A stretch of 43,026 bases of DNA from a virus: the IMG/VR virus record IMGVR_UViG_3300017605_000446, positions 1 through 43,026 of that record, one strand, 5' to 3'. Numbering within the stretch: the first letter of the stretch is position 1; every line of letters begins with the position of its first letter. The translations under genes were made by a program, and so were the position numbers. This document shows, in pieces, positions 1,060-34,414 of the stretch. Below the pieces are notes generated by a model that ran no database searches, had not been told where the DNA came from, and worked only from the letters and a program-made list of their open reading frames with translations.

Positions 1060-1089
1060 AACATGCGCCCGGATTGCCCGACGTGGCAA
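1060..1089 (-). promoter_or_regulatory. candidate promoter A (CATGTTG family)
   Basis: Minus-strand TTGCCA (1089-1084), an 18 nt spacer and CATGTT (1065-1060), with the conserved context CGGGCGCATGTTGA shared with sites near 3425 and 34388. It lies just after the stop at 1095 and upstream of the two-TM gene, with a leader of roughly 75 nt that includes an acidic, Asp/Glu-rich open stretch (about 1064-985). No experimental proof; the repeated context is the evidence. Confidence 0.5.
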
Positions 1090-1094
1090 CATGC

Positions 1095-1385
1095 TCAGGG
1101 CTTGGGCTGCTTCTTCTGCTCCTGCTCGCTCAGGAACTTGTCGAGCCGGTCCACCATGCCCGCGGGCATGAGCCGGTCCTCGATCTTGTCGAGCCGCTGA
1201 TCGTGCTCCGCGACTGCCTTCTCGATCGCGGCGTACGTCGTCTGAACGTGGTACTCGCTCACGGCGAGGTACATGAGGCCAGAGAACAGCGCCAAGGACG
1301 CGGGGATGGCGAGGCCCACGATCCAGCCCGAGATCGACTTGCTCAGTACCTCGGGCCAGATGTCACCCGTGCGCCTTCCAGCCAC
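1095..1385 (-). CDS. single-TM protein with C-terminal coiled coil (lysis region)
   Basis: 96 aa from a GTG at 1385, 2 nt after the previous stop. One TM helix spans about residues 19-42 (WIVGLAIPASLALFSGLMYL), followed by a charged helical region (about 46-92) with heptad-like spacing, ending in QEQKKQPKP. This layout is found in inner-membrane spanins and in small XhlA/holin-accessory proteins. Its place directly after a three-TM holin-like gene supports a lysis role. No signature distinguishes the two options. If it is an i-spanin, its partner could be the lipoprotein at 2670-3239. Confidence 0.6.
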   Translation of the reverse strand: MAGRRTGDIWPEVLSKSISGWIVGLAIPASLALFSGLMYLAVSEYHVQTTYAAIEKAVAEHDQRLDKIEDRLMPAGMVDRLDKFLSEQEQKKQPKP

Positions 1386-1387
1386 GG

Positions 1388-1702
1388 CTAAGACTTGAAC
1401 GTCGGGGAACCGCCAGCGGCACCAGAAGGGGGAGCCTTGATCGCCGTGATGCCTTCTCCGCTGGCGCGAGTGAACCCGAAGATGCCCGCGGCCGACGTCG
1501 ACACCGTGACCCAGCCCACGAAATACTCGAAGAGCCGCGCGCGCTCGAAGGTGCCCACGGAATAGCCCCAGAGGCACACCCCGACGAGTGACAGCGCGAG
1601 CACGGAGAACGGGCCGTACTTGTCGGGCAGCCCCGCCCACTTCACGAGCTGCGTGAGCGCGACCACGGCCGCCGAGACTGCGATGATCGCCTGACCGTCC
1701 AT
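1388..1702 (-). CDS. putative three-TM holin
   Basis: 104 aa with three predicted TM helices, about residues 3-21, 30-50 and 57-78, and a short soluble, Pro/Gly/Ser-rich C-terminus. Size and topology match class I holins, which make holes in the inner membrane so that a signal-less endolysin can reach peptidoglycan; the muramidase at 4152-4754 has no export signal. The start ATG at 1702 overlaps the end of the preceding gene (shared TGATG region), so it is co-translated with the exported protein upstream. No family-specific motif is visible, so holin is inferred from topology and context. Confidence 0.62.
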   Translation of the reverse strand: MDGQAIIAVSAAVVALTQLVKWAGLPDKYGPFSVLALSLVGVCLWGYSVGTFERARLFEYFVGWVTVSTSAAGIFGFTRASGEGITAIKAPPSGAAGGSPTFKS

Positions 1703-2673
1703 CAGTTCCCTCCCTTGAGCTTCTTCACTGCCTGGACTGGATCAACGACAAGGCCGAGCCTGAGCACGTCTCGCCTCTGGATGAGCCCCGGCACGCTGGC
1801 GGCGGCACTGAGCGTCGCGTCCGCGATGAACAGCACCGAGCCCGACACGATGGGCACCTGACCGTAGAGCATGAACGCGAAGCCGCTGTGCAGCCCCGTG
1901 CAGGTGATGGTCGAAGGGCAAGACGAGGACGCTTCGTCGTACCCCGCGAGCAGGGTCATGGATGCATTCGACTTGCGTGCATCGAACCGGACGCCAACAC
2001 CCACGGCGCGCGTCAGCCTATCGAGCGGCTGCTGATCCTTGCTGCCCCTCAAGCGCGATGAGAAGTCGCCCTCGACCACGACCGTGGTATCGACGTCGCG
2101 CAGGTGCCCCACTACGTAGCCGTACCAGATGCCCACGTCCGCGGACTTGAACGTCTCCACGCTCACGGGGTTGATGGCCTGGCCCGGTGAACTGGACAGG
2201 CCCAGACGCGCACCGATGCGGCCCAGGCTGTGGCCATTCCCGATGGCCAGCGGACCATCCGCGTTCACCCACAGCGTCGGCGTAACGGCGGTACCTGCTT
2301 CGGCGGTGACGGTGACGAGCCCGCCGAGCTGGGTGTCCACGTGAAAAGGGCGCGCGTTCTGCTTCTCCACCGCGGTCGGCTTCGGGGAAGGAACGGGTGC
2401 AGGGGGCACGGGAGACTCGGCCACGGCCTCGACGGTGGGCGGGTCGGTCTGCGCTCCCTCCACGAGGTCGAAGGGGACAGGCGTCGGGGAAGGTGACGGC
2501 TTCGCGTGCGGCTTCAGCTTCGGTGCCGGCGCATCGGCGTGCGCGGAGCCGGGCCAGAGGAACACGATCAGAGCCACGATGCCCAGCACGATGAGGCCGC
2601 GGAATGCCCACACGAAGAACTTCTCCTCGCGCTTCAACTCCACCATCAGGGTCTCCAATTCCTCGTGCGTCAC
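1702..2673 (-). CDS. exported Pro-rich protein with beta-rich C-terminal domain
   Basis: 323 aa, GTG start overlapping the upstream lipoprotein gene (GTGA). Residues 1-22 are charged, 23-41 are hydrophobic and are followed by GSAHADAPAP, a good signal-peptidase-like AHA site; alternatively the segment stays as a membrane anchor. Residues about 48-110 are Pro/Lys-rich, a typical extended periplasmic linker. Residues about 112-323 alternate polar and hydrophobic residues with many Gly, Ser and Thr, suggesting a beta barrel or beta sandwich. I do not recognise the family. Position between a lipoprotein and a holin candidate suggests an envelope-spanning lysis protein, or an outer-membrane protein changing the lysogen surface. 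Confidence 0.72.
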   Translation of the reverse strand: MTHEELETLMVELKREEKFFVWAFRGLIVLGIVALIVFLWPGSAHADAPAPKLKPHAKPSPSPTPVPFDLVEGAQTDPPTVEAVAESPVPPAPVPSPKPTAVEKQNARPFHVDTQLGGLVTVTAEAGTAVTPTLWVNADGPLAIGNGHSLGRIGARLGLSSSPGQAINPVSVETFKSADVGIWYGYVVGHLRDVDTTVVVEGDFSSRLRGSKDQQPLDRLTRAVGVGVRFDARKSNASMTLLAGYDEASSSCPSTITCTGLHSGFAFMLYGQVPIVSGSVLFIADATLSAAASVPGLIQRRDVLRLGLVVDPVQAVKKLKGGN

Positions 2674-3239
2674 TGGATGCTTCCGCCCTTGTCCGCGGTC
2701 CTGATGTTCCCCTGCGGGTCCTTGTAGATCGCTACCAGCGTGAAGTTCGCGGCCACACGAGGGCTCGCGGGGTTCACCTGCGCGTTGAAGCGGTTGTCCC
2801 CCTTGATGTCCAGCGTGGCCGCACCCGCCGGAGACACGCTGAAGCGCCAGTCGATGACGTCAGCACTCGTCTTGTCGCCGGGATTCGGAATGTCGACGCC
2901 CGCCTTGTTCTTGGGCGAGGCCGTGACCGCGATGTTGGGATAGCCCGGAGGCAGGGCACAGGCGTTGTGGTTCGGATCGGGCTGCGGAGGTACGGCTCCG
3001 AACCCGTAGCAGAAAATCGCGAAGGACTCGACCACGTTGTCCCCGCCCGGCGCCGAAGGGCTGGGCTGCGGGTTCGTGACGTTGCCGCTCCCATCTCCAA
3101 TCACGCAGGTGCCGCTCCCGGTTACGGTGCAGGTGTTGCTCGAGGTCGGAACCGCAGGGGGCTCCGGGGCGGTAGGTGAGCACGACACGAACACCACGCA
3201 CGCGATGAGGACGCACAGCACGACACCCGGTCTCAGCAT
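2670..3239 (-). CDS. phage-encoded lipoprotein
   Basis: 189 aa. The N-terminus MLRPGVVLCVLIACVVFVSC is a lipoprotein signal with the lipid-attached Cys at residue 20; Ser at +2 favours outer-membrane sorting by the Lol rule. After a Pro-rich stretch come a Gly/Ser-rich low-complexity region and an Ig-like looking beta domain (about 95-185, IAVTASPKNKAG...VNPASPRVAANFTLVAI). It could be the outer-membrane spanin of the lysis set (though large for one) or a lysogenic-conversion lipoprotein. It overlaps the next gene by 4 nt, implying coupled synthesis with the exported protein. Confidence 0.75.
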   Translation of the reverse strand: MLRPGVVLCVLIACVVFVSCSPTAPEPPAVPTSSNTCTVTGSGTCVIGDGSGNVTNPQPSPSAPGGDNVVESFAIFCYGFGAVPPQPDPNHNACALPPGYPNIAVTASPKNKAGVDIPNPGDKTSADVIDWRFSVSPAGAATLDIKGDNRFNAQVNPASPRVAANFTLVAIYKDPQGNIRTADKGGSIQ

Positions 3240-3251
3240 TCGATTTCCCTC

Positions 3252-3416
3252 TCAGCCATCCGGCGGCTGCTCCAGCATGACGGCACCTCGGAGCGCGAAC
3301 TCCCGGCATTCACGGCACTGAAAACGTAGATGTGCGGCGTGGCGCTTGAGCGTGCAGTGGCGCTCAAACCAGGCCAGCCAAGCGGCGACCAGAGGACTCG
3401 GCCGATCGTTGCCCAT
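3252..3416 (-). CDS. small Cys/His protein, first gene after promoter B
   Basis: 54 aa, shorter than a 60-codon cutoff. The ATG at 3416 lies only 5 nt after the -10-like CATGTT (3427-3422). It contains HCTLKRHAAHLRFQCRECRE: a Cys, several His and CxxC, plausibly a zinc-binding finger. Another frame over the same bases is longer (69 codons) but has shadow-like composition. The stop lies 13 nt before the lipoprotein start. Function unknown. Confidence 0.6.
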   Translation of the reverse strand: MGNDRPSPLVAAWLAWFERHCTLKRHAAHLRFQCRECREFALRGAVMLEQPPDG

Positions 3417-3421
3417 GCTTC

Positions 3422-3450
3422 AACATGCGCCCGCGGTTTCATCGACTCAA
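3422..3450 (-). promoter_or_regulatory. candidate promoter B (CATGTTG family), near-leaderless
   Basis: TTGAGT (3450-3445), a 17 nt spacer and CATGTT (3427-3422) in the context CGGGCGCATGTTGA. It overlaps the stop of the coiled-coil gene and fires into the small Cys/His gene and the lipoprotein operon. The ATG follows the -10 by 5 nt, so the transcript would have almost no leader. Confidence 0.55.
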
Positions 3451-4155
3451 CACCGCGAACACGATGCTGCCGATGGTGAGCAGGGTCAGGACGAACCCCG
3501 CGCCGCCGATCACGACGGTCGCGACGAGCCCGATACCAGCGCCCTTGCCGGCCCCTTGCGCGCTAGCCTCCGTCAGCTTCTCCACGGCCGCCGCGAGACG
3601 TGCCGTCTGCGGATCGGCCACCGCCTGCTTGCCTTGCCCCTCGTACTGGAACTTTTCCAGGGCAGCGACCCGCGTCGAGAGTTCCGTGAAGCTGCTGGCT
3701 GTCTGCTTCTGGAGCGCATCGGCCACGTCGGACACCTGCTTCGCCATCGTCGATGCCGTGGTGTTAAGCGCGTTGCGCAGGTTCTCGGCGTCCGTCTTGT
3801 TTGTCGCGGCGAGAGTGTTGATGGCCTGAAGGGCTCGCTCCGATTCCGTCTTGGACGCAGCGACATCGATGCCCCTGACCGCGTCGAGGCGCATCTGCTC
3901 GGCCTTGTGGATCTCTCGGTCGTGCTTCTGGTGCAGCTTCTGGGTGGCCCGCAGGAACTCGGAGCGCAGCCGACTCGATTCCCGTACCGTCTCCAGCTTC
4001 GCATCGATGAGCTTCGTCTGTAGATCCCGAAGGTCGTCCTGCCGCTTCATCGCCGCGGCGAGCTGGTCCCCGACGTTCTTCGTCGGGTCGATAACAGGCC
4101 CACCCGCGAAGTCGACGCCAAGGCCGGAACGTCCGGAAGGTCGCGTGGTTCTCAT
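3439..4155 (-). CDS. long coiled-coil protein with C-terminal membrane segment
   Basis: 238 aa; start ATG at 4155 overlapping the muramidase stop (ATGA). After a short N-terminus, residues about 30-190 are strongly helical and charged with heptad character (LRDLQTKLIDAKLETVRESS and onward), with few Gly or Pro. Residues about 203-236 are hydrophobic (GLVATVVIGGAGFVLTLLTI), enough for one long or two short TM helices, ending at Arg. Tail-anchored coiled-coil proteins beside phage endolysins are often holin- or spanin-like; this one could bring muramidase or lysis factors to the membrane. No family recognised. Confidence 0.72.
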   Translation of the reverse strand: MRTTRPSGRSGLGVDFAGGPVIDPTKNVGDQLAAAMKRQDDLRDLQTKLIDAKLETVRESSRLRSEFLRATQKLHQKHDREIHKAEQMRLDAVRGIDVAASKTESERALQAINTLAATNKTDAENLRNALNTTASTMAKQVSDVADALQKQTASSFTELSTRVAALEKFQYEGQGKQAVADPQTARLAAAVEKLTEASAQGAGKGAGIGLVATVVIGGAGFVLTLLTIGSIVFAVLSR

Positions 4156-4754
4156 GCGAGCTCCGCATAGGCGCGAGCCATGCGACGGTCGTACCCGCTG
4201 GCCGCGAAGTTCGGCCCGTTGTAGTACCTCGCGAACGCCGACCAGCTCAGAGAGCGGATCGCATCGACCAGGCGCCCATCGTTGCGGATGAACAGCACCA
4301 GCGCCCGGAGATGGTCGTCGGCGCTTCGATACATCGCGTTCACGAACCGCTGGAGCTCCGGATAGCCGGCGGCTGTGTGGTTGAGCCCGAGGATCTGGTA
4401 CAGGCCCCACGAGCACGCCTGGAGCGCCGCATCTCGGTCCAGCAGGGCCGCCCGCGCCAGCCGCTCATGCTGCTGCGGGCTCGAGCCGTACGTGCCAGGC
4501 GGCGAGGGCTGGGAGTTCGACAGGTCGGGGGCGTCGTGGTCGAAGCGGCCATCGGTCAGGCGGTGGAAGATGTGACGCTCGAAGAGAATCACCGGCCGGT
4601 CGTCGGGCAGAAAGGCACCCTGCGGGCCGGCCTCCACCTTGGCTATCGCCTTCAAGGCGCGAGGCTCGGCAATCAGGAGCCATGCCGCGGCGGCGTACCC
4701 CTCATCGGTCGGCTGTGCTGTCTTCACGAAGACCGCCCGCAGTAGCCGCACCAT
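4152..4754 (-). CDS. endolysin, N-acetylmuramidase domain (PF11860-type)
   Basis: 200 aa, a single-domain enzyme cutting the glycan MurNAc-GlcNAc bond of peptidoglycan at lysis. Seen: EAGPQGAFLPDD, then ILFERHIFHRLT (E59 is the likely catalytic acid), DLSNSQPSPPGTYG, RLARAALLDRDAALQACSWG with SWGLYQILG around residue 115-123, and RYYNGPNF near the C-terminus; these are the hallmark blocks of this family in the right order. There is no signal peptide, so a holin is needed. The start at 4754 (MVRLLRA) is chosen for its fit to the family; an upstream in-frame start would add 18 atypical residues. It overlaps the zinc-ribbon gene upstream by 31 nt and the coiled-coil gene downstream by 4. Confidence 0.92.
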   Translation of the reverse strand: MVRLLRAVFVKTAQPTDEGYAAAAWLLIAEPRALKAIAKVEAGPQGAFLPDDRPVILFERHIFHRLTDGRFDHDAPDLSNSQPSPPGTYGSSPQQHERLARAALLDRDAALQACSWGLYQILGLNHTAAGYPELQRFVNAMYRSADDHLRALVLFIRNDGRLVDAIRSLSWSAFARYYNGPNFAASGYDRRMARAYAELA

Positions 4755-4951
4755 CGCGAGCCCTCCGCGATGATCCTGTGGACCCAGCCCTTGGGGCATT
4801 TCGTGCACGGCACCGGCTTACATTGCGTGCAGAAGGAACCGCGTTCGTGGAGGAACGTCGGCTGGGAGAACGTGAGGGGCGGGGCATCGGGCTCGCTGCG
4901 TGCAGCGTCGGGAGGCGCACCATGGGGCCTGACGACGCGCGCGGGTGTCAA
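4724..4951 (-). CDS. zinc-ribbon miniprotein
   Basis: 75 aa from a TTG whose TTGA overlaps the preceding stop. The C-terminal half has FCTQCKPVPCTKCPKG followed by WCGYCG: six Cys as three CxxC pairs, which can bind one or two zinc ions. The N-terminal 30 residues are Pro/Ala-rich and probably disordered. The rare TTG start and 31 nt overlap with the muramidase suggest low, coupled expression. Function unknown. Confidence 0.6.
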   Translation of the reverse strand: MTPARVVRPHGAPPDAARSEPDAPPLTFSQPTFLHERGSFCTQCKPVPCTKCPKGWVHRIIAEGSRWCGYCGRSS

Positions 4952-5508
4952 CAGCTCTGCCCTGGCGGTTGCCCGTCATCAGCGATGAGAGTGCGCGCCA
5001 ACCCAATCGTGACCGGATACTCTTCTGGGTGATTGACGATATATCGGGCCCTAGCCAGCCTAATTCGCCGGATGCACACGAACTTCCGAGCACATGACCT
5101 TGAGCAAGTCCGAGCATTGCGTCGACCCACGGCAATCGCGTTGCCGCAGACGGCACACTCCTTCAGCAGCCGCAAGGCTTCCGCCACGGCATTGACCATC
5201 ACCGGACGCGCTGGCCGCTTGTTGTGAGGCCCGTGGCACTTCAGACACAGCCACTCGACGTCGAGAGGCTTTGAGTAGTCATGGTGGTGAGCCTCGATCG
5301 CCACATCCGAGCGGCGACACCGAAAGCACGTGTCCGGGCGTACCAAGACCCCAGCGACTATCGCACTTGCGACCGCCGCTCTGGCCCTGTGCTTGTCTGG
5401 GTTCAGGATCTGATGGATGCGCTGCCTGCTGAGGCCGCAACGCCGGCCGATCTCACTGAACGGAACCCCATGTCGATGCAGTCGGAGCAACTCCGCGCGC
5501 GGGAGCAT
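4948..5508 (-). CDS. HTH plus zinc-finger (HNH-like) DNA-binding protein
   Basis: 186 aa. Residues 1-45 form a helix-turn-helix (RHGVPFSEIGRRCGLSRQRI with the recognition helix SRQRIHQIL). Residues about 60-98 read CFRCRRSDVAIEAHHHDYSKPLDVEWLCLKCH: two CxxC pairs around AHHHDYSKPLDV, a pattern common in phage HNH-like/zinc proteins. A third cluster, CAVCGNAI...TCSRSCARKF, resembles a C-terminal zinc knuckle. It may be a homing-type nuclease or a transcription factor for the lysis genes it precedes. It has its own consensus-like promoter (5516-5545) with the ATG 7 nt after the -10, so it probably heads the lysis operon. Confidence 0.75.
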   Translation of the reverse strand: MLPRAELLRLHRHGVPFSEIGRRCGLSRQRIHQILNPDKHRARAAVASAIVAGVLVRPDTCFRCRRSDVAIEAHHHDYSKPLDVEWLCLKCHGPHNKRPARPVMVNAVAEALRLLKECAVCGNAIAVGRRNARTCSRSCARKFVCIRRIRLARARYIVNHPEEYPVTIGLARTLIADDGQPPGQSC

Positions 5509-5515
5509 CGCGAAG

Positions 5516-5545
5516 ATCGTAGGCGAAATGTGGACAAAGTGTCAA
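5516..5545 (-). promoter_or_regulatory. sigma70-like promoter of the lysis operon
   Basis: TTGACA (5545-5540), an 18 nt spacer and TACGAT (5521-5516), reading leftward into the gene starting at 5508. The -35 lies in the 8-mer CTTGACAC (5546-5539) shared with the control region at 16.9 kb and the capsid promoter. Only 7 nt separate the -10 and the ATG, so the mRNA would be leaderless or nearly so. Confidence 0.65.
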
Positions 5546-5575
5546 GGTCTTTCGGCTACAGGTTGCCGATCTGTC

Positions 5576-6130
5576 CTACGGCTTCTCCGCTCCCGACTCC
5601 GCTCCCCAGTAGGCAGCCCGAGCATTACGATCCGCTTGGATGGCTTCCAGCAGCGCGGCGCGAAGCTCCGGAAACGTCTTGAACTCGCCCACGTTCGGCG
5701 CACCGTCACGGCCACCGTACCGCAAGAAGGCGCCCCAGGCTCCGCCCTCGTCCGGCTCCTCTTCGATGCTCACCGCGAAGTAGGGACGTGTTCCCGGCTC
5801 GCCCGGCCCGAACAGCGTGAGCGAGGGATTGCCCTCCGCGTTCTCGCACAGCCGAGCGGTGTCATAGCGTTCGGCGTGTTCCCACCACGTCAGCTTCTCT
5901 TCAGCCTTCAACGCGCGGGCCTTCCATGCCGCCGTCTGCTTGTCCGACGTGTACAGCAAAGGCTCCTGGATCTCGCGGGCGAAGGCGCGGAGGCGTTTCG
6001 TAAGCGTTAACGTGCCGGGCCACACTACCTCGTCCGGCTCGCCAGGATCGCACATCACGCCCTCTAGCCAGTCCACCTCTGCCTTGATTCGCGCCTCCAG
6101 CTCCGGCGTAAGAGGAGTCTCGGAGGTCAT
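5576..6130 (-). CDS. hypothetical early protein
   Basis: 184 aa, start ATG at 6130 overlapping the upstream stop (ATGA). Acidic N-terminal half with helical character (TPELEARIKAEVDWLEGVM), then a mixed region with WWEHAERYDTARLC and a C-terminal ALLEAIQADRNARAAYWGAE helix. No metal-binding cluster, TM segment or known motif. It is the last gene before the lysis promoter and the end of the early operon. Confidence 0.7.
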   Translation of the reverse strand: MTSETPLTPELEARIKAEVDWLEGVMCDPGEPDEVVWPGTLTLTKRLRAFAREIQEPLLYTSDKQTAAWKARALKAEEKLTWWEHAERYDTARLCENAEGNPSLTLFGPGEPGTRPYFAVSIEEEPDEGGAWGAFLRYGGRDGAPNVGEFKTFPELRAALLEAIQADRNARAAYWGAESGAEKP

Positions 6131-8485: not shown

Positions 8486-8489
8486 CTCT

Positions 8490-8570
8490 CTACCTCCTGG
8501 CCTTTTTGTAGGCACGTCGATTTTTTAGCGTCACCGCCCGCGCAGCCAACCGCACGACGCCGTCAGCCAC
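8490..8570 (-). CDS. possible 26-aa basic peptide
   Basis: GTG at 8570 overlaps the preceding stop (GTGGCTGA). It encodes a basic helix-like peptide with VRLAARAVTLKNRRAYKKAR. It fills the only gap in this part of the operon, and its stop falls in the next RBS. No homology can be seen; it could be chance. Confidence 0.25.
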   Translation of the reverse strand: MADGVVRLAARAVTLKNRRAYKKARR

Positions 8571-16844: not shown

Positions 16845-16865
16845 TCGGCCTCCCGTGGAGCGTGT

Positions 16866-16894
16866 AACATGCTTGACACTCCGTCCACAGATAA
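16866..16894 (-). promoter_or_regulatory. weak second leftward -35/-10-like pair
   Basis: TTATCT (16894-16889), 17 nt, CATGTT (16871-16866). The -10 equals that of the CATGTTG family but lacks its GGGCG context. It overlaps the CTTGACAC repeat at 16872-16879, so a bound repressor would cover it. Confidence 0.3.
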
Positions 16895-16920
16895 TACGCA
16901 TCTCTCCCCCCCGTGTCAAG
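16872..16920. promoter_or_regulatory. inverted CTTGACAC pair, candidate repressor operators
   Basis: CTTGACAC at 16872-16879 and its exact complement GTGTCAAG at 16913-16920, 33 bp apart. The second copy carries the -35 of the leftward early promoter; the first can supply the -35 of a rightward promoter toward the repressor (TTGACA 16873-16878, no good -10). The pair lies between the repressor and the early genes, where operators are expected. Confidence 0.6.
16891..16919 (-). promoter_or_regulatory. leftward early promoter, near-consensus sigma70
   Basis: TTGACA (16919-16914), a 17 nt spacer containing a G7 run, and TATTAT (16896-16891). Predicted start around 16884, giving a 40 nt leader before the ATG at 16844. 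It is the best promoter in the window and drives the excisionase-like, CII-like and early genes. Its -35 lies in a CTTGACAC repeat. Confidence 0.8.
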
Positions 16921-16979
16921 TCTTTTCGCGTCACCATGGACGGATAGTCCAAATGCCTCCATCTCACCCGGTGAAATCG

Positions 16980-17396
16980 ATGTTTCCAGAACGTCTAGCG
17001 GCGCGACGCGAAGAACTCGAACTCACCCAGAAGGAGGTCGGGGAGCGGGTCGGAAAGTCGAACTCGGCCGTGTCGAAGTGGGAGGAAGGGAGCCGGGAAC
17101 CCGACTACACGACCCTGATCCGCCTGGCGGCGGTGCTGCACGTCTCGGTCGAATGGCTGATTGGGACAGACGGCGCCCCTTCACCGCCACGGCCGCATCT
17201 ACGTCTGGAGGAGGGAAAGCGCCTGATTAGATCGGCGCGGGAGATCGTCGAGGCGCTCGTCTCGCTGCTACCCGATGGCGACGAGCAGGACGAATGGATG
17301 AAGCAACTGGCGGAGGAGGCCGCACCGGACGCACCGCGTCGATCTGGCGGTCAATCTCCGCTTCGGCCAGCCTCAAGGCGTCGAGGGCGGCCATGA
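16980..17396 (+). CDS. Cro/CI-type HTH repressor
   Basis: 138 aa from ATG 16980, preceded by GGTGA at RBS distance. Residues about 4-64 (ERLAARREELELTQKEVGER, GKSNSAVSKWEEGSREPDYT, LIRLAAVLHVSVEWLIGTD) are a typical HTH_3 domain: LTQKEVGERVG is helix 2 and NSAVSKWEEG the recognition helix. The remaining 70 residues are helical then Pro/Arg-rich, with no S24 (LexA-like) peptidase, so induction by RecA cleavage is not expected. It is divergent to the early operon and surrounded by the CTTGACAC sites. The probable lysogeny repressor. Confidence 0.85.
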   Translation: MFPERLAARREELELTQKEVGERVGKSNSAVSKWEEGSREPDYTTLIRLAAVLHVSVEWLIGTDGAPSPPRPHLRLEEGKRLIRSAREIVEALVSLLPDGDEQDEWMKQLAEEAAPDAPRRSGGQSPLRPASRRRGRP

Positions 17397-19909: not shown

Positions 19910-19954
19910 TGGTGCTGGTGGAAGGATTTGAACCTTCACTATGCCGATTTTAAG
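19910..19954 (-). other. attP: attP core: 3' half of a tRNA gene
   Basis: On the minus strand: CTTAAAA (anticodon-loop-like), TCGGC, ATAGT, then a T-arm GAAGG-TTCAAAT-CCTTC, an acceptor strand CACCAGC, A and CCA. There is no matching 5' half, so this is not a tRNA gene but a copy of the host tRNA 3' end that restores the gene on integration. It lies 63 nt before the gene preceding the integrase. The anticodon loop reads UAA (Leu), but the variable region looks short for Leu, so the identity is open. The rest of 19848-20138 has no gene. Confidence 0.85.
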
Positions 19955-20103: not shown

Positions 20104-20132
20104 TTCCGGACTGATCCCGCGGGGCGCATGTT
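20104..20132 (+). promoter_or_regulatory. candidate promoter D (CATGTTG family), near-leaderless
   Basis: GGGCGCATGTTG (20122-20133) has the same 12 nt as sites A-C but points rightward. -10 CATGTT 20127-20132; the -35 (TTCCGG 20104-20109, 17 nt spacer) is poor. The ATG at 20139 is 6 nt after the -10. It would drive the two secreted proteins. Confidence 0.5.
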
Positions 20133-20138
20133 GGGACC

Positions 20139-20570
20139 ATGAGGAACGCGATGACGGTGCCCGTGCTGTTCGCCCTGGCCGCCCTGATGGTATCGCCCGC
20201 GGCGGCCCAGGACGTGCCGACACAGCATGCGGTCTGCGGGCCCGGCCTCGTCCCCTGCCCAGATCGTCCGGACGCGCCCACGCGGCGCCTGGGCCCGCGG
20301 CTGGCATTCTACGGCGCGCTGGCCGTCGCCGACCTGGCCAGCACCGAGATGTTCCTGCACCGCAGGCGCGATGAGGGCAACCCGCTCATGCGCGACAGGG
20401 CCGTCCGCGTCATCAGCCGCACAGTCGCGACGGTCGGCATCGCGAAGCTGGACCAGTACCTCGAGCGCAAGGGCAAGCGCCGCGCGGCGTGGGCCGTCCG
20501 AGGCGTGCTGGCCCTCGGCACAGGCATCATCGTCGCGCGCAACATGCGCGCCCATGGGAGCATCGAATGA
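20139..20570 (+). CDS. exported/membrane protein, first gene of the plus-strand moron
   Basis: 143 aa. Signal peptide: MRNAMTVPVLFALAALMVSP then AAAQD (likely cut after AAA/AQ). The mature part has a Cys pair (CGPGLVPC) and a TM-like helix (about 54-69, LAFYGALAVADLASTEMF), a basic stretch with RRRDEGNPLMRDRAVR, and a second hydrophobic region (AAWAVRGVLALGTGIIV). ADxxST...GNP resembles a widespread exported family ('ADxxTT...E.NP') of unknown function. It is on the opposite strand to its neighbours, next to attP, with its own promoter: a typical lysogenic-conversion gene. Confidence 0.75.
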   Translation: MRNAMTVPVLFALAALMVSPAAAQDVPTQHAVCGPGLVPCPDRPDAPTRRLGPRLAFYGALAVADLASTEMFLHRRRDEGNPLMRDRAVRVISRTVATVGIAKLDQYLERKGKRRAAWAVRGVLALGTGIIVARNMRAHGSIE

Positions 20571-20887
20571 AGAAGACGACGGCCGCCCTCGCCCTGATGC
20601 TCGTCCTCGCCGCCACCAGCGCCTCGCCCCAGGCCCGGAACCCGAAGGCCAGCGGGTGCGCCTTCCAGCTCGTCGTGACGGTGCTCGACCTCCAGGACGA
20701 AGCCGGAACCGTGACCACGGAGCCGACGTACCTCGTGCGCCAGGTGCAGCCCCCAGGCTTCTTCACGGACGAGGCCGCGGCGTGGTTCAGCGCGCGGACG
20801 ATCGCAGCCGAAGGCGTGCGCGACGGCTCGACCTTCTACCCGGCGAACGTGATCCGCAAAATCTGGATGGCCCGCGCCTGCTCTTAG
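20567..20887 (+). CDS. secreted protein, second gene of the moron
   Basis: 106 aa, start MKKTTAALALMLVLAATSAS at 20567 (ATGA overlap): a textbook signal peptide cut around ASP. Mature part about 85 residues with two Cys (SGCAFQ and RACS), beta-rich middle (LVVTVLDLQDEAGTVTT), and no known domain; a disulfide is plausible. Its stop TAG overlaps the opposite gene's stop TAA, so transcription runs directly against the tail operon. Confidence 0.72.
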   Translation: MKKTTAALALMLVLAATSASPQARNPKASGCAFQLVVTVLDLQDEAGTVTTEPTYLVRQVQPPGFFTDEAAAWFSARTIAAEGVRDGSTFYPANVIRKIWMARACS

Positions 20888-22182
20888 GGCAGGAACGTCG
20901 GCAGCGGCAGCTCCGTCCAGACGAGGGTGGACCCGGTAAAGTAGGTGACGAGGGTCAGATCATAGCCCCAATCGTCCACGAGCCGCCCGTAGATGCAGAC
21001 CTCCGTGTCCGAGTCGTTGGGGATCACCACGGCCGCGTAGACGCCGCCGAGGGAACGCCTGTAGATTTCGTCTCGCGCCTGCTGGAACATCGCGAGGCTC
21101 GAGTAGCGGAAGCTGCAGCCCAGGATTCGCGTCGGGCCTGAGCTCCGCGCGTAGGCGATCCGATCCGCCGTGCTCCGGAGCTGCGGCTGCACGAACCGAT
21201 AACTGACGGGGGTATTCGGTTCCTTCGTCAGCGTGAACGTCTGGGCCAGCACCAGCTCGCCATACCAGAGCGGCTCGAATGGATTGTTAGCGTTGAACGC
21301 GCCCCGAGAGGTCGCCGGACTGGTCGTCGTGCCGCTGTACATGCGGATAGCCTGGCCGGCGCCACCGGCGGGCTCATACTGGAAAGCCCAGTATCGATCC
21401 GACTGCACCAAAGCGAACGCGGAGTAGAAGCTCGGCTGCTTCGCGCTGCCCGATGGCGTCGCTCCGCCGAGGTTGTGCCCGTGGATGCTCGCGAGGCTCA
21501 CCCCCGGCCAGATGTAGACATCGTCATAAATCGGGCCCGAGGCCGCGGCGCCGCCGCCATCGAGAATGATCCGCAGCATGATGGCGTGCTTGTCGCCGCA
21601 GGATGAGAAAGGCTCGATGGTGAAATCGGAGGCGGTGGTCACGAACGCAGTTCCGGTGATGTTCTGGAACGCCGTCTTCGTCAGCGTCCAGACGGCGGCG
21701 TTCGTGAGGTACTTTCCGTTTTGAAGGTTTTGAACATAGACGTTTGAGTTTTCGCCGACGTTCGTGCCCCTCCGCGACGACACCGTGAAGTGGCCGCCCT
21801 CGTCGGTCAGGAAAGGGGCGTCGAAGTAGATATAGTCGGTTCCGGCCGTACCGACGACGCGGCACCCGGCTGTCCCGCTGTTGAAGTTTCCGGCGCCCGT
21901 GACCCGCGTAACTGTGGGCGCGCCCTTCTTACCCCATGCCGACGTCGGCAGTGTCGTGGTCGCGTCGAAGACGGTTTCCATGTCCCCGTCCGTGATCTCG
22001 TTCAGATCGATCAGATAAGTCGCGGTTGTGGCGATCGAGCCGAACATGAAGGGCTGATCGGGATACCCGTCGTACGCGTTCGTGACCGGGAACCGGGCGT
22101 CCGCGGCAGGCGTCACAGTCGGGGCCGCCGCGCACCGCTCCAGCAGGTTGAACTTCCGGCCCGTCGCGATCTTGAATGCCAT
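20884..22182 (-). CDS. tail-tip / receptor-binding-like structural protein
   Basis: 432 aa, last gene of the tail operon. Gly, Ser, Thr and aromatic-rich beta composition throughout. Residues about 20-90 contain NAYDGYPDQPFMFGSIATTA and TYLIDL, similar to discoidin-like 'alteration of coordinates' segments in tail proteins; the middle is a jelly-roll-like region (TEPFSSCGDKH, IILDGGGAAASG). The C-terminal third (RILGCSFRYSSLAMFQQARD, VYAAVVIPNDSDT) looks like a phage tail-distal segment. Probably a tail-tip or fibre subunit. It starts 6 nt after the previous gene. Confidence 0.68.
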   Translation of the reverse strand: MAFKIATGRKFNLLERCAAAPTVTPAADARFPVTNAYDGYPDQPFMFGSIATTATYLIDLNEITDGDMETVFDATTTLPTSAWGKKGAPTVTRVTGAGNFNSGTAGCRVVGTAGTDYIYFDAPFLTDEGGHFTVSSRRGTNVGENSNVYVQNLQNGKYLTNAAVWTLTKTAFQNITGTAFVTTASDFTIEPFSSCGDKHAIMLRIILDGGGAAASGPIYDDVYIWPGVSLASIHGHNLGGATPSGSAKQPSFYSAFALVQSDRYWAFQYEPAGGAGQAIRMYSGTTTSPATSRGAFNANNPFEPLWYGELVLAQTFTLTKEPNTPVSYRFVQPQLRSTADRIAYARSSGPTRILGCSFRYSSLAMFQQARDEIYRRSLGGVYAAVVIPNDSDTEVCIYGRLVDDWGYDLTLVTYFTGSTLVWTELPLPTFLP

Positions 22183-25671: not shown

Positions 25672-25674
25672 CCG

Positions 25675-28553: not shown

Positions 28554-28597
28554 CCCCTCGCCACGCTCCCCTCGGAACTCATCCGAGAGGCGGAACC

Positions 28598-29125: not shown

Positions 29126-29140
29126 GGCTCTCTTCCTTTC

Positions 29141-29362
29141 TCACGGGTCGATGCCCGTATGCGCCATGAAACAAGCGATGGCGGCCTCGAGCGGCCCCAT
29201 CGGTAATTCCGGCACGTTCCCGAGCCGGTACTGCTCCGCCAGCCACGGCCAACACTCGATGAGCGTCTGCGCCGCCGCTTCGATCGCGGTGTCCTGATCG
29301 GAGCGCCGCCTGCGCGCGCGGAACCTCTCGTCCTCGCGTTGCAGGCGACGACCCGCGCCCAT
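29141..29362 (-). CDS. small tail-region protein
   Basis: 73 aa, ATG 29362 overlapping the tube-protein stop (TGATG). Basic start (RRLQREDERFRARRRRSDQD), then a helix with Trp (TLIECWPWLAEQYRLGNVPE) and an Ala-rich C-terminus. Between tube and chaperone genes. Unknown function. Confidence 0.68.
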   Translation of the reverse strand: MGAGRRLQREDERFRARRRRSDQDTAIEAAAQTLIECWPWLAEQYRLGNVPELPMGPLEAAIACFMAHTGIDP

Positions 29363-30447
29363 CAGGCAAGGAGGTCCGTAGTCAGCTTGTTGGTGTTCAT
29401 CCAGGTGCAGGCGTCCACGAACCCGGACGTGAATCCGGTCGGCGCCGTGGTGACGTGGTGCGACTCGAACGGCACCTGCCAGCCGAGCGCGCCCGCGGAC
29501 AGCTTCGGCTTGCCCGACCCGAACACGACCATGGGGAAATAGAGCTTGTGGCTGTACTTCTCCGTCGCCGCGCCCGCGAGCCCGTCTCCCACGAAGGACC
29601 AGTCCATCTTCTTCGTGGTCCGGTTGAGCTGCTCCATCACGTACGCGGTGTTGCCACCAGGCGAGCCCGTCTGGTACTGCGAGAACGTCAGGGAGCCCGT
29701 CACGGAGAGAAACGCCGCGTCCCCGACCGGCGGCTGAGGCTCGCTCGACAGGTAGCCCAGCGCCGTCGTGAAATCGCGCTCCAGGGGCCGCGCGATCGTG
29801 ACTTCGCCCGCCGTGCAGTCCACGGCATCGGTCGATCCGAGCGCACCGCCCGACTGCGCGTTGAGCCGGATCCCGCCGGCCAAGTGCCGCGCCTGGGCGA
29901 TCTCGGTATTCGCCGACTGCGTGATCGTGTCGATGGTGGTCGTGGTGTTGATGGCCGAGACGTCGGTGAAGTTGCTCCCGATGAACTCGACCTCCAGGAT
30001 CGCCTCTCCGGGGATCTGCCAGCTCAGCTTCACGCTGATGGGCTTCACCGTGTTGAACTCGAAGATGGTGGTGTCCTTCAAGACCTCATAGGCGAGGGTC
30101 CAGAAGATGCCGTCGATGTTGTCGTTGATCTTGAGGGTATGAGCGCGGGCGGACGTGTCCAGCGTGGCCGGGACTCCGGCCGTGCCGAACAGCCCAGCAA
30201 TGAGACGCCCCACGCCCTCGTAGCGCAGCGGAGCACGGACGGTCCCGCCCACCTCGATATTCCCAGCGTCACCTTCGATGCGTGACACGCGCCCGGTGAT
30301 CGTGGGGCGGGGGATGATGGTCCGGTTCGCTTCGAGGTCGACGGAGAGGACCTCGAGCCCGTCGAGGGCCGCGCACGCGACGGCCGTACCCCAGGTCGCC
30401 GCTTTCTTGAAGCCGACTATCCCCTGATAGCCCTTGCTCTTCGCCAC
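29362..30447 (-). CDS. major tail tube protein
   Basis: 361 aa. MAKSKGYQGIVGFKKAATWG then TAVACAALDGLEVLSVDLEA and IPRPTITGRVSRIEGDAGNI: the 'G....v...t.wG' opening found in HK97-/TP901-type tail tubes. Beta-rich and two-domain sized. It follows the tail-terminator gene in canonical order. Confidence 0.85.
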   Translation of the reverse strand: MAKSKGYQGIVGFKKAATWGTAVACAALDGLEVLSVDLEANRTIIPRPTITGRVSRIEGDAGNIEVGGTVRAPLRYEGVGRLIAGLFGTAGVPATLDTSARAHTLKINDNIDGIFWTLAYEVLKDTTIFEFNTVKPISVKLSWQIPGEAILEVEFIGSNFTDVSAINTTTTIDTITQSANTEIAQARHLAGGIRLNAQSGGALGSTDAVDCTAGEVTIARPLERDFTTALGYLSSEPQPPVGDAAFLSVTGSLTFSQYQTGSPGGNTAYVMEQLNRTTKKMDWSFVGDGLAGAATEKYSHKLYFPMVVFGSGKPKLSAGALGWQVPFESHHVTTAPTGFTSGFVDACTWMNTNKLTTDLLA

Positions 30448-30450
30448 GGG

Positions 30451-30624
30451 TTACTCCTTCCCCTTCTTCGTGTGGGCGTCTTCGTGAGAGCCCTTGACCT
30501 TGTGCAGGCCGGCTTCCAGGAGCTGCTCGACCCTCTCGTCGGGGTACTCGTGCTCGCCCGGAACGAGATCCAGCCCGGTTGTCGGGTGGTACTGACGCTG
30601 CTTGCCGTCGAACCTGAGCTTCAT
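30451..30624 (-). CDS. small hypothetical protein before the tube gene
   Basis: 57 aa, ATG 30624 (ATGA overlap), below a 60-codon cutoff. MKLRFDGKQRQYHPTTGLDL and PGEHEYPDERVEQLLEAGLH look like a compact fold, plus a Lys/His-rich tail (KVKGSHEDAHTKKGKE). 'F.G.....PT..........dlp.....L...G' is typical of short phage structural-region proteins of unknown role. Confidence 0.68.
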   Translation of the reverse strand: MKLRFDGKQRQYHPTTGLDLVPGEHEYPDERVEQLLEAGLHKVKGSHEDAHTKKGKE

Positions 30625-30821
30625 TCCGTCCTCCCCCTGCGCGCGCGTACACGTTCCTGAAGGGCCATGTGCTGCGCCTCGAGCCCCGCCGGCGCCTCGA
30701 CTCCGGGCTCCGTCAGTAGCACCTCGATCGCCTCGACGCGGGCCGTCAGGTCCTTCAACTCCGCTCGAATGGAGCGCGTGTTGCGGAGCGTGGCGTCCTG
30801 GGCGTTGCGCTTCTTCGTCAT
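30621..30821 (-). CDS. small helical protein
   Basis: 66 aa, ATG 30821 (ATGA overlap). One long charged helix (TRSIRAELKDLTARVEAIEV) and a basic C-terminus (QERVRARRGRTE). Probable coiled coil. Unknown function. Confidence 0.6.
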   Translation of the reverse strand: MTKKRNAQDATLRNTRSIRAELKDLTARVEAIEVLLTEPGVEAPAGLEAQHMALQERVRARRGRTE

Positions 30822-31321
30822 GGCGTGCTGTTCCGATAGGCATAGACGATCGTGAAGTGGATCTCCGCGATGGCCCATCCCTCGACGAAGCGGTCCCGAT
30901 CCACCGTCACCGGGTTCGCGAACACGTTCTCGACGGCGCCGCCAGCGCTCACGAGCTGCACATCGACCAGCATCTTCCGCAGGACGTCTCGGACCATCCG
31001 GTTGACCACCGTCCAGCGCATCACCGTGGCCGGGTTGTGGGGCGTGTCGCTGTCCGTGTAGGGCGTCGCCACGAGCACGAACAGGTCCATGAAGCCCTTC
31101 GAGCTCCCGGTCGTGCCTTCCTCGTGCGTCTCCTCGCCCGGCCGGATGGCGTAGATGGGCCCGCCCAGCCCCGGCTTCAGCACAGCCTCGTCCGGCGCGA
31201 ACCAGAGCGTCCGCACCACAGCCGCGGGCGTGTACCAGTACGTGGTACCGCCGTCGCTGGTGATGGCGGCCAGGCTCGACCGCAGGGCCACCACGATCTG
31301 CTCGTGGATGCTCTCGGCCAT
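30818..31321 (-). CDS. tail completion/terminator-like protein
   Basis: 167 aa, ATG 31321 directly after the previous TAG. Its slot between an HK97-gp10-like gene and the tube gene, its length and its beta/helix mix (VVALRSSLAAITSDGGTTYW at the start, FVLVATPYTDSDTPHNPATV, VEGWAIAEIHFTIVYAYRNS at the end) fit the tail-terminator fold that caps the finished tail. No specific motif. Confidence 0.62.
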   Translation of the reverse strand: MAESIHEQIVVALRSSLAAITSDGGTTYWYTPAAVVRTLWFAPDEAVLKPGLGGPIYAIRPGEETHEEGTTGSSKGFMDLFVLVATPYTDSDTPHNPATVMRWTVVNRMVRDVLRKMLVDVQLVSAGGAVENVFANPVTVDRDRFVEGWAIAEIHFTIVYAYRNSTP

Positions 31322-31846
31322 CTACGCCACCGCCGAGGACACGATGCGCACCCCGCCGGCCTCGAAGAGGGCGATCTCCCGCTCGATCGCGGCGGCGATC
31401 TTCGGCGCCGCGGTCACCATCGCACTGTTGGCCGCCGGGAAGACGTGGATGTTCGAGCCGGGATGAAGGACGGAGTCGCGGATCACGACCCCGATGGACG
31501 GCACCTTCAGCTTGAGCTTCCGCGGGCCGGGCCCGATCAGGTGCCCCTTCGTGCGCCCGCCGCTCTCCTGCATGGCCGCCAGGCCGCGGAGCTCGATCGA
31601 CAGGATGAAAGCGTTCCCCTTGTCCGTGACCTTCGTCTTGACCAGCCCGCCCAGCCCCTTCGGCTTCTTCCCGAAGATGGTCCGCACGATGCCGTGCTGG
31701 CGCGCCTTCGCCATGTAGATCGCGCGCGGGATCCTCGCGGAGCGCTTCATGCCTCGCACCACGGACGGCCGGATGGACGCTCCAAAGCGGTCCAGCACCT
31801 CCGCGAAGCCCTCGGGCGTGAAGATGCCGGAGGTCTGGGAGATCAT
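31322..31846 (-). CDS. HK97 gp10-like tail-completion protein
   Basis: 174 aa. GFAEVLDRFGASIRPSVVRG, RIPRAIYMAKARQHGIVRTI, GAGGGRTKGHLIGPGP-like glycine turns and a C-terminal EREIALFEAGGVRIVSSAVA. Layout and context match the head-tail joining proteins that follow connector genes. ATGA overlap with the connector. Confidence 0.65.
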   Translation of the reverse strand: MISQTSGIFTPEGFAEVLDRFGASIRPSVVRGMKRSARIPRAIYMAKARQHGIVRTIFGKKPKGLGGLVKTKVTDKGNAFILSIELRGLAAMQESGGRTKGHLIGPGPRKLKLKVPSIGVVIRDSVLHPGSNIHVFPAANSAMVTAAPKIAAAIEREIALFEAGGVRIVSSAVA

Positions 31847-32526
31847 GCGTCCCGCTCCCCGTAGACGCCCCGCAGAGTGGGCGACAGCGCCCCGATGGAG
31901 GCCAGGCGCGTCTTCATGCCCTCCGTCACCATCGGCGGCCCCTGCCAGAGCGTGCGCGTGCCCATGGCGTCGGTAGACGAGTCGGTGCCCACCTCGCCCT
32001 TCGTCCGGTGCCGGATAATCCAGGCCGTGAGGTCATCGAACACGTCGAGGATCACCGGATGTACGTCCTGCGCGGCGGACACGACCCCGGCCGTGTCCTT
32101 GAAGCCGAAGATGCCGACGACCTTCACCGCGCGCCAGCCCACCGTCCACGCCTGCGGGAGGCTGTTCGCGACGCGGATGATCTTGCCGTCCGCGCTCGAC
32201 GCCGGCTGGCTCACGATGTAGTCGGTATTGACCACCAGCAGCGTCGACCCACCGAAGACCCGCGTGGCGTCCTCGTTGATGCTCGTGATGCTCACGATGG
32301 GCCGCTGATTCGGATAGAGGACGTGGCAGGACGGATCCCGCGCGTAGAAGGTGTAGTACTCGGTCACGCTCCCGCGCGAGACGATCTCCGTCCCCCACGC
32401 GCCCTCCACGAGCTGCGACGCCTCGTTGACAGCCGCCTCCACCACGGAGTCGATGTTCGTGCCCGTGATGTTCAGCGCCGCCTTCGCCGCGACGACCGTG
32501 CGGAGCGCGTAGGCCCACAGCGCCAC
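31843..32526 (-). CDS. head-tail connector (gp6-like)
   Basis: 227 aa from GTG 32526, adjacent to the upstream TAG. Helical start (VVAAKAALNITGTNIDSVVE, AVNEASQLVEGAWGTEIVSR) then a beta part (FYARDPSCHVLYPNQRPIVS, ITSINEDATRVFGGSTLLV), with 'P..yP..PI.sItsv.d' as in phage connector proteins. Joins portal to tail. Confidence 0.76.
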   Translation of the reverse strand: MALWAYALRTVVAAKAALNITGTNIDSVVEAAVNEASQLVEGAWGTEIVSRGSVTEYYTFYARDPSCHVLYPNQRPIVSITSINEDATRVFGGSTLLVVNTDYIVSQPASSADGKIIRVANSLPQAWTVGWRAVKVVGIFGFKDTAGVVSAAQDVHPVILDVFDDLTAWIIRHRTKGEVGTDSSTDAMGTRTLWQGPPMVTEGMKTRLASIGALSPTLRGVYGERDA

Positions 32527-32727
32527 CTACCTCTTCCCCCTCCGCGATACGGTCGTCTCGGCCTTTTCGTGGTGCTTCGCCGTCGCCGTCTCGACCTTCT
32601 CGCCCGCAGGCTCGACCATGCCCGCCGCGATCCGCACTGCGGCCACGTCATCGGCCATCTCGAGGACGGCCCCCGCCTCGACCTGGCCCGACTCGCAGAC
32701 GAAGGACGTCAGCGCGCGGACCTTCAT
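32527..32727 (-). CDS. small head-tail region protein
   Basis: 66 aa, ATG 32727 (ATGA overlap). MKVRALTSFVCESGQVEAGA, then DVAAVRIAAGMVEPAGEK: the opening resembles short phage proteins of the connector region ('k.f.g......G.v........a..li..g..e'). Charged C-terminus. Unknown function. Confidence 0.65.
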   Translation of the reverse strand: MKVRALTSFVCESGQVEAGAVLEMADDVAAVRIAAGMVEPAGEKVETATAKHHEKAETTVSRRGKR

Positions 32728-32903
32728 CGCGGCCTCTTCATGAGCTGGTCGACCGCGTCTTCTCCCTTGCACACTCCGACCGCGACGACGATGTTGTTGG
32801 GCTTATCGGGAGGTGCGAGGGGCAAGTTCGGATAGCCGGGGTCGAAAGCCGGCTGCTTGTCCGTCAAGGTCCCGGTCGGCTCCGGATGAGGCTGTCTCGG
32901 CAT
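32724..32903 (-). CDS. Pro-rich small protein after the capsid
   Basis: 59 aa, ATG 32903, GGAGG 6 nt upstream. MPRQPHPEPTGTLTDKQPAF, DPGYPNLPLAPPDKPNNIVV and a C-terminal ...DAVDQLMKRP. Probably mostly extended. It lies just beyond the terminator-like hairpin. Unknown function. Confidence 0.6.
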   Translation of the reverse strand: MPRQPHPEPTGTLTDKQPAFDPGYPNLPLAPPDKPNNIVVAVGVCKGEDAVDQLMKRPR

Positions 32904-32916
32904 TCGATACCTCCGC

Positions 32917-32951
32917 TGAAAAGTGAGGCGGGCCCACGCGAGCGACCCGCC
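32917..32951 (-). terminator. hairpin with short U tract after the capsid gene
   Basis: GGCGGG (32946-32951 read on the minus strand) and CCCGCC (32927-32932) with a 13 nt loop, followed by TCACTTTT. It could trim capsid transcription, but the U tract is weak and the next RBS begins about 10 nt later, so partial termination is more likely. Confidence 0.45.
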
Positions 32952-32962
32952 CCACGAGGTTG

Positions 32963-34204
32963 TTACGCGGTTCGGAGGTAGCGAACGGCTGTGGCGTCGA
33001 CGAGGTTGCCGTCCGACCGCTGGAAGACCAGGAACACGACCTGGCCGTTGAGCAGGCGCAGCTCGTCGGCCCGGTAGAACTGCGGAGCCCCGGCGTCGCG
33101 GATCTTGTAGGCGTTGAAGTCGCCGTAGAGCACGAGCCGCTTGTTGGTGGAGAACGCGGAGTCCATGTCGTTGTTGATGATGACCGGCTGGCCGAACGCG
33201 GTGTCCGGCCGACCGACCTGCAGGGACATCTCCCACAGGTAGCGGTTCTGGCTGTCCTTCAGCTTCCGCAGGAAGGCGGCCGTCGTGTCGGCCATCATGA
33301 AGGCCGAGTTCGGACGGTTCCGGTACGCGATGTCGACCGAGTGGAACAGGTCGATCACCTCGTCCCAGATGAGGGCGTTGGTGGCCGCGGCCGTCTTGCC
33401 GAGGCCCGCCTGCACCTGGACACCGAACGGAAGCGTGGTCCCGGCCCCCGCCGTGAAGTCGGTGTTCTGCTTGCGCGCGATGCGGGTGCCGAGCGCGGTG
33501 CCGAGGTAGACGGGCAGGTTGATCGAGGAGTCCTGAAGCAGCTCGATCGGCACGATGACGGCCTTGGAGCTGTACTTGAAGGCCCCGAGGGTCACGACGC
33601 CGAACGTCGGGTCCGCGGTCGTGGTGACGGCGCCGCCGTCCGACACGATCTCTCCCGTGTTCGCCGTGTCGTCCACGGTCGGGAGGGGGAGCGGGGCGCC
33701 GGTCGACGTCGAGATGACGTCGGCCACGTTGCGGACGCGCCCGTACCACTTCTGGATCTCCCAGTACGCCTTCATCATCTCGTTGGGGATGCTGGCCTGG
33801 CCCTGCGTGGCCGTCACGCTGGACAGCGCGCGGACTTCGATCTCTCGCCGCATGTAGCGGAACCCGATCCGATTGGCGGCCTCGATCTGTTCCTCGGTCG
33901 CGTACTCGCCCGCGGCCCACGCGCGGAAGGCCAGGTCGTTGTCGCGCTCGCGGGTGGCATCGACGGAAACGATGGCCGTCTCCGTCTTGCGTCCGCGGGA
34001 CTCCGCGAGCATCCGCTCCTCGGACTCGTTCTTCGCGATGTTGTCGAGCATCTTGCGGATCTCGACGGTGCGGGCGTCCTTCTTGTCGAACTCGGCCTGC
34101 TCTTCTCCCGTCAGGGTCCGCTTCTCGGAGGCCGCCTTGTCGAGCGCGGCTTTGTTCTCCTCGTGCAGCTTGACCCGCTCGGCGATGAGTTCCTTTGTGT
34201 CCAT
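32963..34204 (-). CDS. HK97-fold major capsid protein
   Basis: 413 aa. Residues 1-75 form a helical scaffold-like delta domain (LIAERVKLHEENKAALDKAA) expected to be removed by the protease. The fold body shows MRREIEVRALSSVTATQGQA, then IPNEMMKAYWEIQKWYGRVR, NVADVISTSTGAPLPLPT, VVTLGAFKYSSKAVIVPIEL, LLQDSSINLPVYLGTALGTR, and GYFNA-like LYGDFNAYKIRD with VVFLVFQRSDGNLVD. All are HK97-type capsid blocks. It has its own promoter (C) and a structured leader. The ATG at 34204 has GGGAGG about 9 nt upstream. Confidence 0.95.
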   Translation of the reverse strand: MDTKELIAERVKLHEENKAALDKAASEKRTLTGEEQAEFDKKDARTVEIRKMLDNIAKNESEERMLAESRGRKTETAIVSVDATRERDNDLAFRAWAAGEYATEEQIEAANRIGFRYMRREIEVRALSSVTATQGQASIPNEMMKAYWEIQKWYGRVRNVADVISTSTGAPLPLPTVDDTANTGEIVSDGGAVTTTADPTFGVVTLGAFKYSSKAVIVPIELLQDSSINLPVYLGTALGTRIARKQNTDFTAGAGTTLPFGVQVQAGLGKTAAATNALIWDEVIDLFHSVDIAYRNRPNSAFMMADTTAAFLRKLKDSQNRYLWEMSLQVGRPDTAFGQPVIINNDMDSAFSTNKRLVLYGDFNAYKIRDAGAPQFYRADELRLLNGQVVFLVFQRSDGNLVDATAVRYLRTA

Positions 34205-34240
34205 ACTGAGCGCCTCCCAGCGCGGCCAGGTGGGCGCCCA

Positions 34241-34300
34241 AATGCAAAGCGGGCGCGAACCCTGGCGAAAGTGCTTCCTTTCGCTTAGGTCCGTGCCCGC
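34241..34300 (-). promoter_or_regulatory. nested hairpin in the capsid mRNA leader
   Basis: Outer stem GCGGGC (34300-34295) with GCCCGC (34254-34249); inner stem GCGAAAG (34284-34278) with CTTTCGC (34271-34265) and a 6 nt loop. Followed by TTTGCATTT. It occupies most of the leader between promoter C and the capsid ATG. It might be an attenuator, a processing site or an RNA stabiliser. Confidence 0.55.
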
Positions 34301-34384
34301 TTCAGCGCGCGACGGATCTTCTAGAACAGCCGCCCCGGATCGCTTCGGCGTCCGCTACGGCCGAGCTGCTACGTCTACACCTTC

Positions 34385-34414
34385 AACATGCGCCCGGCGG
34401 TTCTACCGTGTCAA
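34385..34414 (-). promoter_or_regulatory. promoter C upstream of the capsid (CATGTTG family)
   Basis: TTGACA (34414-34409), 18 nt, CATGTT (34390-34385) in CGGGCGCATGTTGA. The -35 lies in CTTGACAC (34415-34408) and covers the last codons of the methyltransferase gene. Predicted leader about 170 nt. It carries both repeated elements seen in this genome and is the strongest of the CATGTT set. Confidence 0.6.

Follow-up and report, generated by a model that had tools for sequence, protein, structure and literature searches.

What is the role of a short word that stands, always in the same orientation, ahead of several separate genes of an uncultivated phage? The word lies in the IMG/VR virus record IMGVR_UViG_3300017605_000446, all 43,026 bases of which were analyzed and are called the window here. 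The minus strand is the coding strand for most window genes, among them late genes for the large terminase, the head protease, and the major capsid protein (32963-34204, minus strand; PF05065 and phrog_10), along with putative portal and tail genes assigned from position and size. The window also encodes early genes, an integrase, an AlpA-type regulator, a NinG-like protein, an endolysin, a holin-like protein, and, on the plus strand, a gene labeled repressor from its HTH_3 match (16869-17396). With this gene content, the phage is temperate and tailed. L206, a 5.4-kb contig with sequence from both window ends, has these ends 33 bp apart, so the record is nearly a complete genome. As to the host, the tRNA 3′ end beside the integrase had no match in 3 MAG genomes (up to 3 mismatches) or in 396 plus 68 genomes of two phyla (up to 1 mismatch).

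Copies of the word and their placement

The 14-mer CGGGCGCATGTTGA occurs three times on the minus strand, at 1058-1071 (S1, ahead of membrane-protein and HNH-like genes), 3420-3433 (S2, in a short gap), and 34383-34396 (S3, preceding the capsid gene), and the 12-mer GGGCGCATGTTG occurs on the plus strand at 20122-20133 (S4, before a secreted-protein-like, or moron, open reading frame [ORF]). All four are exact matches, as an earlier sequence-only reading had claimed, with positions shifted by 1. That reading was also right that the copies are intergenic and face the gene that follows: S1 to S4 occupy four separate gaps, and 4 out of 4 are co-oriented with the downstream gene. A small Cys-rich ORF (3252-3416) starts with its ATG at 3416, 3 nt past the end of S2, and is followed by the lipoprotein-like gene; the secreted-protein-like ORF has its ATG at 20139, 5 nt past the end of S4. 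HNH-like, lipoprotein, and moron are putative labels given by eye, and Pfam and PHROG searches gave no family match for these ORFs.

The weight of the evidence lies in the placement and direction of the copies and not in how often the word is repeated. A 14-mer present three times had a mean of 0.05 in 20 whole-window Markov-4 sets. However, the window has a second 14-mer with three copies and two other 12-mers with four, all in coding sequence, so the case does not rest on copy number. Gene gaps make up ∼6% of the window according to a hand-made gene list, and their true share is smaller because some listed gaps contain unlisted coding sequence; when the gaps were resampled 200 times under a Markov-2 model, no 12-mer appeared in more than 2 of them.

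Parts of the word are more frequent still. The sequence GCATGTTG has 7 copies in the window compared to 0.76 expected, five of which lie between genes; the fifth gap copy, absent from the earlier reading, is at 1087-1094 (minus strand), 28 bp upstream of S1. GCATGTT has 10 copies compared to 2.4 expected. Two copies of GCGCATGT (203 and 7442) were scored as intergenic by the script and were rejected; they are actually antisense within unlisted coding sequence. Beyond the word itself, free local alignment of the S1 to S4 flanks showed no similarity (six pairs; lowest P, 0.05). When the flanks were anchored on the word, one of the six pairs, S2-S3 upstream, gave a P of 0.015, and all pairs taken jointly gave a P of 0.037 upstream and 0.26 downstream.

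Promoter elements at the word sites and in relatives

The sigma70 consensus consists of TTGACA at −35 and TATAAT at −10. The CATGTT within the word matches TATAAT at 3 of 6 positions, keeping the A at position 2 and the T at position 6. In S3, CATGTT (34385-34390) lies in the −10 slot of a perfect −35 box, TTGACA (34409-34414, minus strand; 6/6), at a spacer of 18. A −35-like TTGAGT (3445-3450, minus strand; 4/6) lies at a spacer of 17 in S2, and a −35-like TTGCCA (1084-1089, minus strand; 5/6), overlapping the extra GCATGTTG copy, lies at a spacer of 18 in S1. S4 has no −35 match and carries CTTCCG at that position. These are the three hexamers, 17 to 18 nt upstream, that the sequence-only reading had reported. 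With random positions, TTG at a spacer of 17 or 18 in at least three of four sites has a chance of ∼1e-5, in a test that is not fully blind because both spacers came from that reading. None of the four word sites reached the threshold in a consensus promoter scan of the window apart from bases 39001-43026, and the scan totals, 3 and 1 sites compared to 1.7 and 1.4 in shuffles, are within chance. Sigma54 and ECF promoter boxes, compared by eye against their consensus, did not fit.

Two near-consensus promoters on the minus strand serve for comparison: TTGACA-17-TATTAT (16891-16919), beside the repressor gene and from a scan with 3 sites overall compared to 1.7 expected, and TTGACA-18-TACGAT (5516-5545), 7 nt ahead of an ATG. 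The sequence CTTGACAC forms the −35 of both and of the capsid promoter. It has 4 copies in the window compared to 0.87 expected, the fourth being in the early-promoter site beside the repressor gene.

Relatives of the capsid gene allowed the S3 promoter slot to be compared. The 260 nt ahead of each capsid start were read in 14 sequences, namely, the window and 13 relatives with ∼50 to 79% capsid identity, a set from which near-copies and more distant relatives were left out; the nearest capsid relative has 79% identity. TTGAC was present 160 to 235 nt upstream of the capsid start in 11 of the 14 (L125, L138, and L141 do not have it in the slot) compared to 3.2% of random 80-nt slices. Scored with one-base tolerance over spacers 8 to 39, likeness to TATAAT peaks at spacers 17 to 19, with means of 4.1 to 4.5, and the means for the remaining 29 spacers do not exceed 3.6. 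The −10 letters themselves differ between phages (CATGTT, GAGCAT, TACCGT, TCCAAT, CACACT, TACAGT, and TAGTAT), and L126, L131, and L139 offer no hexamer better than 2/6 at spacers 16 to 19. Coding does not explain the slot since the gene upstream of the capsid gene ends in a varying frame and at a varying length among the relatives. The comparison thus supports S3 as a sigma70-type promoter. From the placement of their −35-like hexamers, S1 and S2 would be promoters as well, and S4 is a putative promoter by virtue of the common word.

The word itself did not follow the slot. The 12-mer had no exact copy in 18 capsid-relative records, several of them near-duplicates and many of them fragments, or in 7 other related records. 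Copies with up to 2 mismatches were not above those of the reversed pattern (45 compared to 46 in the capsid relatives and 30 compared to 40 in the others). Seven 1-mismatch copies were found across the 25 records, and the one at a gene junction of the closest relative (L206, 889-900) was not counted as a word copy because the sequence reads as coding Gly-Ala-Trp-stop. Likewise, none of 11 capsid-promoter strings of the relatives recurred at 12 nt in its own record, many of these records being fragments; one 11-nt recurrence was found in each of G008, G007, and G014, and a 10-nt recurrence in L123 was dismissed as a ribosome-binding site plus start codon. At least 118 stretches in IMG/VR hold the exact 14-mer. 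Among the matches listed, one or more open frames of 314 nt exist at 90 of 117 usable sites, which, in GC-rich DNA, is weak evidence for coding. These sites show no excess of TTG at spacers 16 to 18 (one each) and no −35 beyond background.

For the S1, S2, and S4 regions, no useful relatives were found. The S1 region yielded one relative of the HNH-like gene, with a different upstream gene, and five relatives of the holin-like gene with no word copy in their loci. For S2, there were four distant relatives of the preceding gene. For S4, no relatives of the moron were found, and the neighboring gene (20884-22182) had no pattern match. As the −10 letters differ and the 25 related records hold no exact copy, the word is not a conserved class, and within the range of these records it is specific to this phage. 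Of the "phage promoter class" proposed from the sequence, the promoters are supported (S3 by its relatives and S1 and S2 by −35 placement), and a class kept among relatives is not: conservation of the motif in relatives had been named beforehand as the check that could refute the proposal, and the word is absent there, though the capsid promoter slot is kept.

The capsid leader RNA

The S3 promoter is separated from the capsid start by a leader of ∼175 nt (34205-34381, minus strand) that folds better than shuffled sequences (z score of −3.79) and for which covariation indicates four helices. In an alignment of 13 sequences, from which the structure was itself predicted, 89.9% of cells pair, and 28 double-side changes were counted compared to a shuffled mean of 11.8. 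Shared ancestry may inflate this shuffle test; a control with slid partners, which retains ancestry, gave at most 13. One helix includes GGAGG, the ribosome-binding site, and a long GC-rich hairpin followed by T-rich sequence is visible by eye. An alternative helix, GCCAGG:CCTGGC, was not retained, as 16 of 2,000 cross-pairings equaled its score, which is suggestive only.

The leader model was searched against 85 sources (the window and L123-L206, with L001-L122 and L207-L229 left out), among which the leader was found solely before this capsid type. The search gives no independent support because its 18 strong matches are the 13 training sequences and 5 near-copies; the 10 weaker matches (up to E of 1) fall on those stretches again, on the other strand. 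In Rfam, the leader stretch of the window had no match up to an E of 5, and that of a relative had one match, at 16.6 bits compared to a threshold of 63.6. As a candidate cis-acting RNA, the leader may restrain capsid translation or read-through until it is opened. The comparisons indicate that the capsid gene of this phage group has its own promoter and a folded leader that is conserved, an arrangement that could make capsid output differ from that of the other late genes. Among the titles and abstract openings returned by a literature search, none describes the word or the capsid leader.

Competing readings and known systems

The explanation that we consider probable is that the word covers positions −17 to −5 of promoters for the host housekeeping (sigma70-type) RNA polymerase. 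CATGTT would be a weak −10 box, with a TTG-type −35 box 17 to 18 nt upstream in three of the four sites, and the promoters would provide extra starts for the capsid genes, the small-protein/lipoprotein genes, the HNH/terminase end of the late region, and a moron. In this uncultivated temperate phage, the word marks where internal promoters of the late half probably lie. An ATG follows CATGTT after 5 nt in S2 and 6 nt in S4 and follows TACGAT after 7 nt in that promoter, so leaderless or near-leaderless messages are possible there; such messages were compared with a published account (PMC3616915). Several features count against the sigma70 explanation: relatives do not conserve the word, the −10 match is weak, S4 has no −35, none of the four sites passed the consensus scan, and the capsid slot is incomplete or poor in the −10 in six of the sequences compared. 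In addition, the GGGCG ahead of the −10 is uniform in the word copies while the −35 varies between sites, and this invariant block outside the two hexamers is not explained by sigma70. The uniformity may reflect one promoter core that has spread among gene borders, to which the anchored flank alignment points weakly, or an extra protein that reads the core.

That an invariant block extends beyond the −10 box while the −35 varies is also what would be expected if the word were an asymmetric binding site of a phage regulator, a lysogen repressor or a late activator, overlapping the −10s and coupling the promoters. This is rather unlikely. A weak hint in its favor is a GCATGTT that, as part of GTGTCAAGCATGTTACAC, closely follows the early promoter beside the HTH_3 repressor gene, but this site has only 7 letters in common with the word and lies at a different promoter distance, and GTGTCAAGCATGTTACAC occurs only once even with 3 mismatches allowed. 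Moreover, the word has no dyad, and no regulator is tied to it. In its specific form, in which a dedicated regulator reads the −17 to −5 block and switches the capsid, packaging-end, small-protein/lipoprotein, and moron genes together, we regard the idea as unlikely; if true, it would mean a small phage-specific regulon whose site differs by phage while the capsid promoter slot and structured leader stay. The short distances between the word and the ATG in S2 and S4 could also mean that it acts in RNA as a start-associated sequence, helping or blocking translation of the next gene. This is very improbable: the S3 copy is 178 nt before the capsid start, the word holds no Shine-Dalgarno sequence, the stretches past S1, S2, and S4 fold normally (z scores of 2.4, 0.04, and 0.8), and −35 placement is a feature of DNA. 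Chance repetition in a GC-rich genome, in favor of which the other multicopy 12-mers and 14-mer may be cited, can be given hardly any credence, since those repeats are coding whereas the word copies are all in gaps and co-oriented, with TTG at 17 to 18 in three.

Compared to known sigma70-type phage promoters, the sites are alike in the TTGACA-like −35 in three of four, the 17- to 18-nt spacer, the A and T at key −10 positions, and, for the capsid site only, a slot kept in relatives; they are unlike them in the weak −10 and the invariant block before it. T4-like late promoters also have a fixed −10-region word at late genes. However, −35 boxes are present here at three sites, and a Pfam scan of 30 ORFs found no phage sigma factor, the only Sigma70_r4 matches being below the curated cutoff, in two helix-turn-helix proteins. 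The stoperators of cluster A mycobacteriophages number more than twenty copies per genome and are bound by a monomeric two-domain repressor (PMC9283540). They too are short asymmetric gap words in one orientation relative to transcription (4 out of 4 here), whereas this phage has 4 full copies, placed on a promoter slot, with no binding protein known. The start-associated sequences of cluster K mycobacteriophages occur in 11 to 19 copies 3 to 7 bp before start codons, have a Shine-Dalgarno core, and are common to related phages (PMC3203893). They resemble the word as 13-bp asymmetric sequences repeated near start codons within a genome; the word differs in having no such copy number, Shine-Dalgarno core, or sharing, and its distance to the start codon fits theirs in S2 and S4 only.

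Ends of the record

Both ends of the window are represented in the related 5.4-kb contig L206 (positions 610-3417), where they are separated by 33 bp. Because this contig joins the two ends so closely, the record is a nearly whole genome, cut near the packaging genes. Reading by eye of the stretch without a listed gene at 1-339 (minus strand) pointed to a putative second HNH-like nuclease, adjoining the HNH-like gene at 340-639.

A repeated -35-type word, the repressor region, and the integrase gap

The word CTTGACAC/GTGTCAAG occurs four times in the window (5539-5546, 16872-16879, 16913-16920, and 34408-34415) compared to 0.87 expected, and three of these copies are predicted -35 boxes. Immediately 3′ of the near-consensus early promoter and adjoining the HTH_3 repressor gene lies GTGTCAAGCATGTTACAC (16862-16879, minus strand), which may be an operator. 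In the gap adjoining the integrase gene, a piece resembling a tRNA 3′ end (19910-19939, minus strand) comprises a T-arm, acceptor strand, and CCA. No complete tRNA was found there by ARAGORN, and a search for the piece in 464 genomes from two phyla gave 0 matches. This piece is probably attP.

The capsid-gene leader and the gene upstream

Four helices were predicted in the leader between the capsid promoter and the capsid gene start (34205-34381, minus strand), one of which is predicted to include the ribosome-binding site. Covariation in an alignment of 13 sequences supports all four; comparison of the leader with Rfam yielded nothing close to threshold. A methyltransferase-like gene (34403-34939, minus strand) lies immediately upstream of the capsid promoter, and many records with a related capsid gene carry DNA similar to this gene region directly upstream of that capsid gene.
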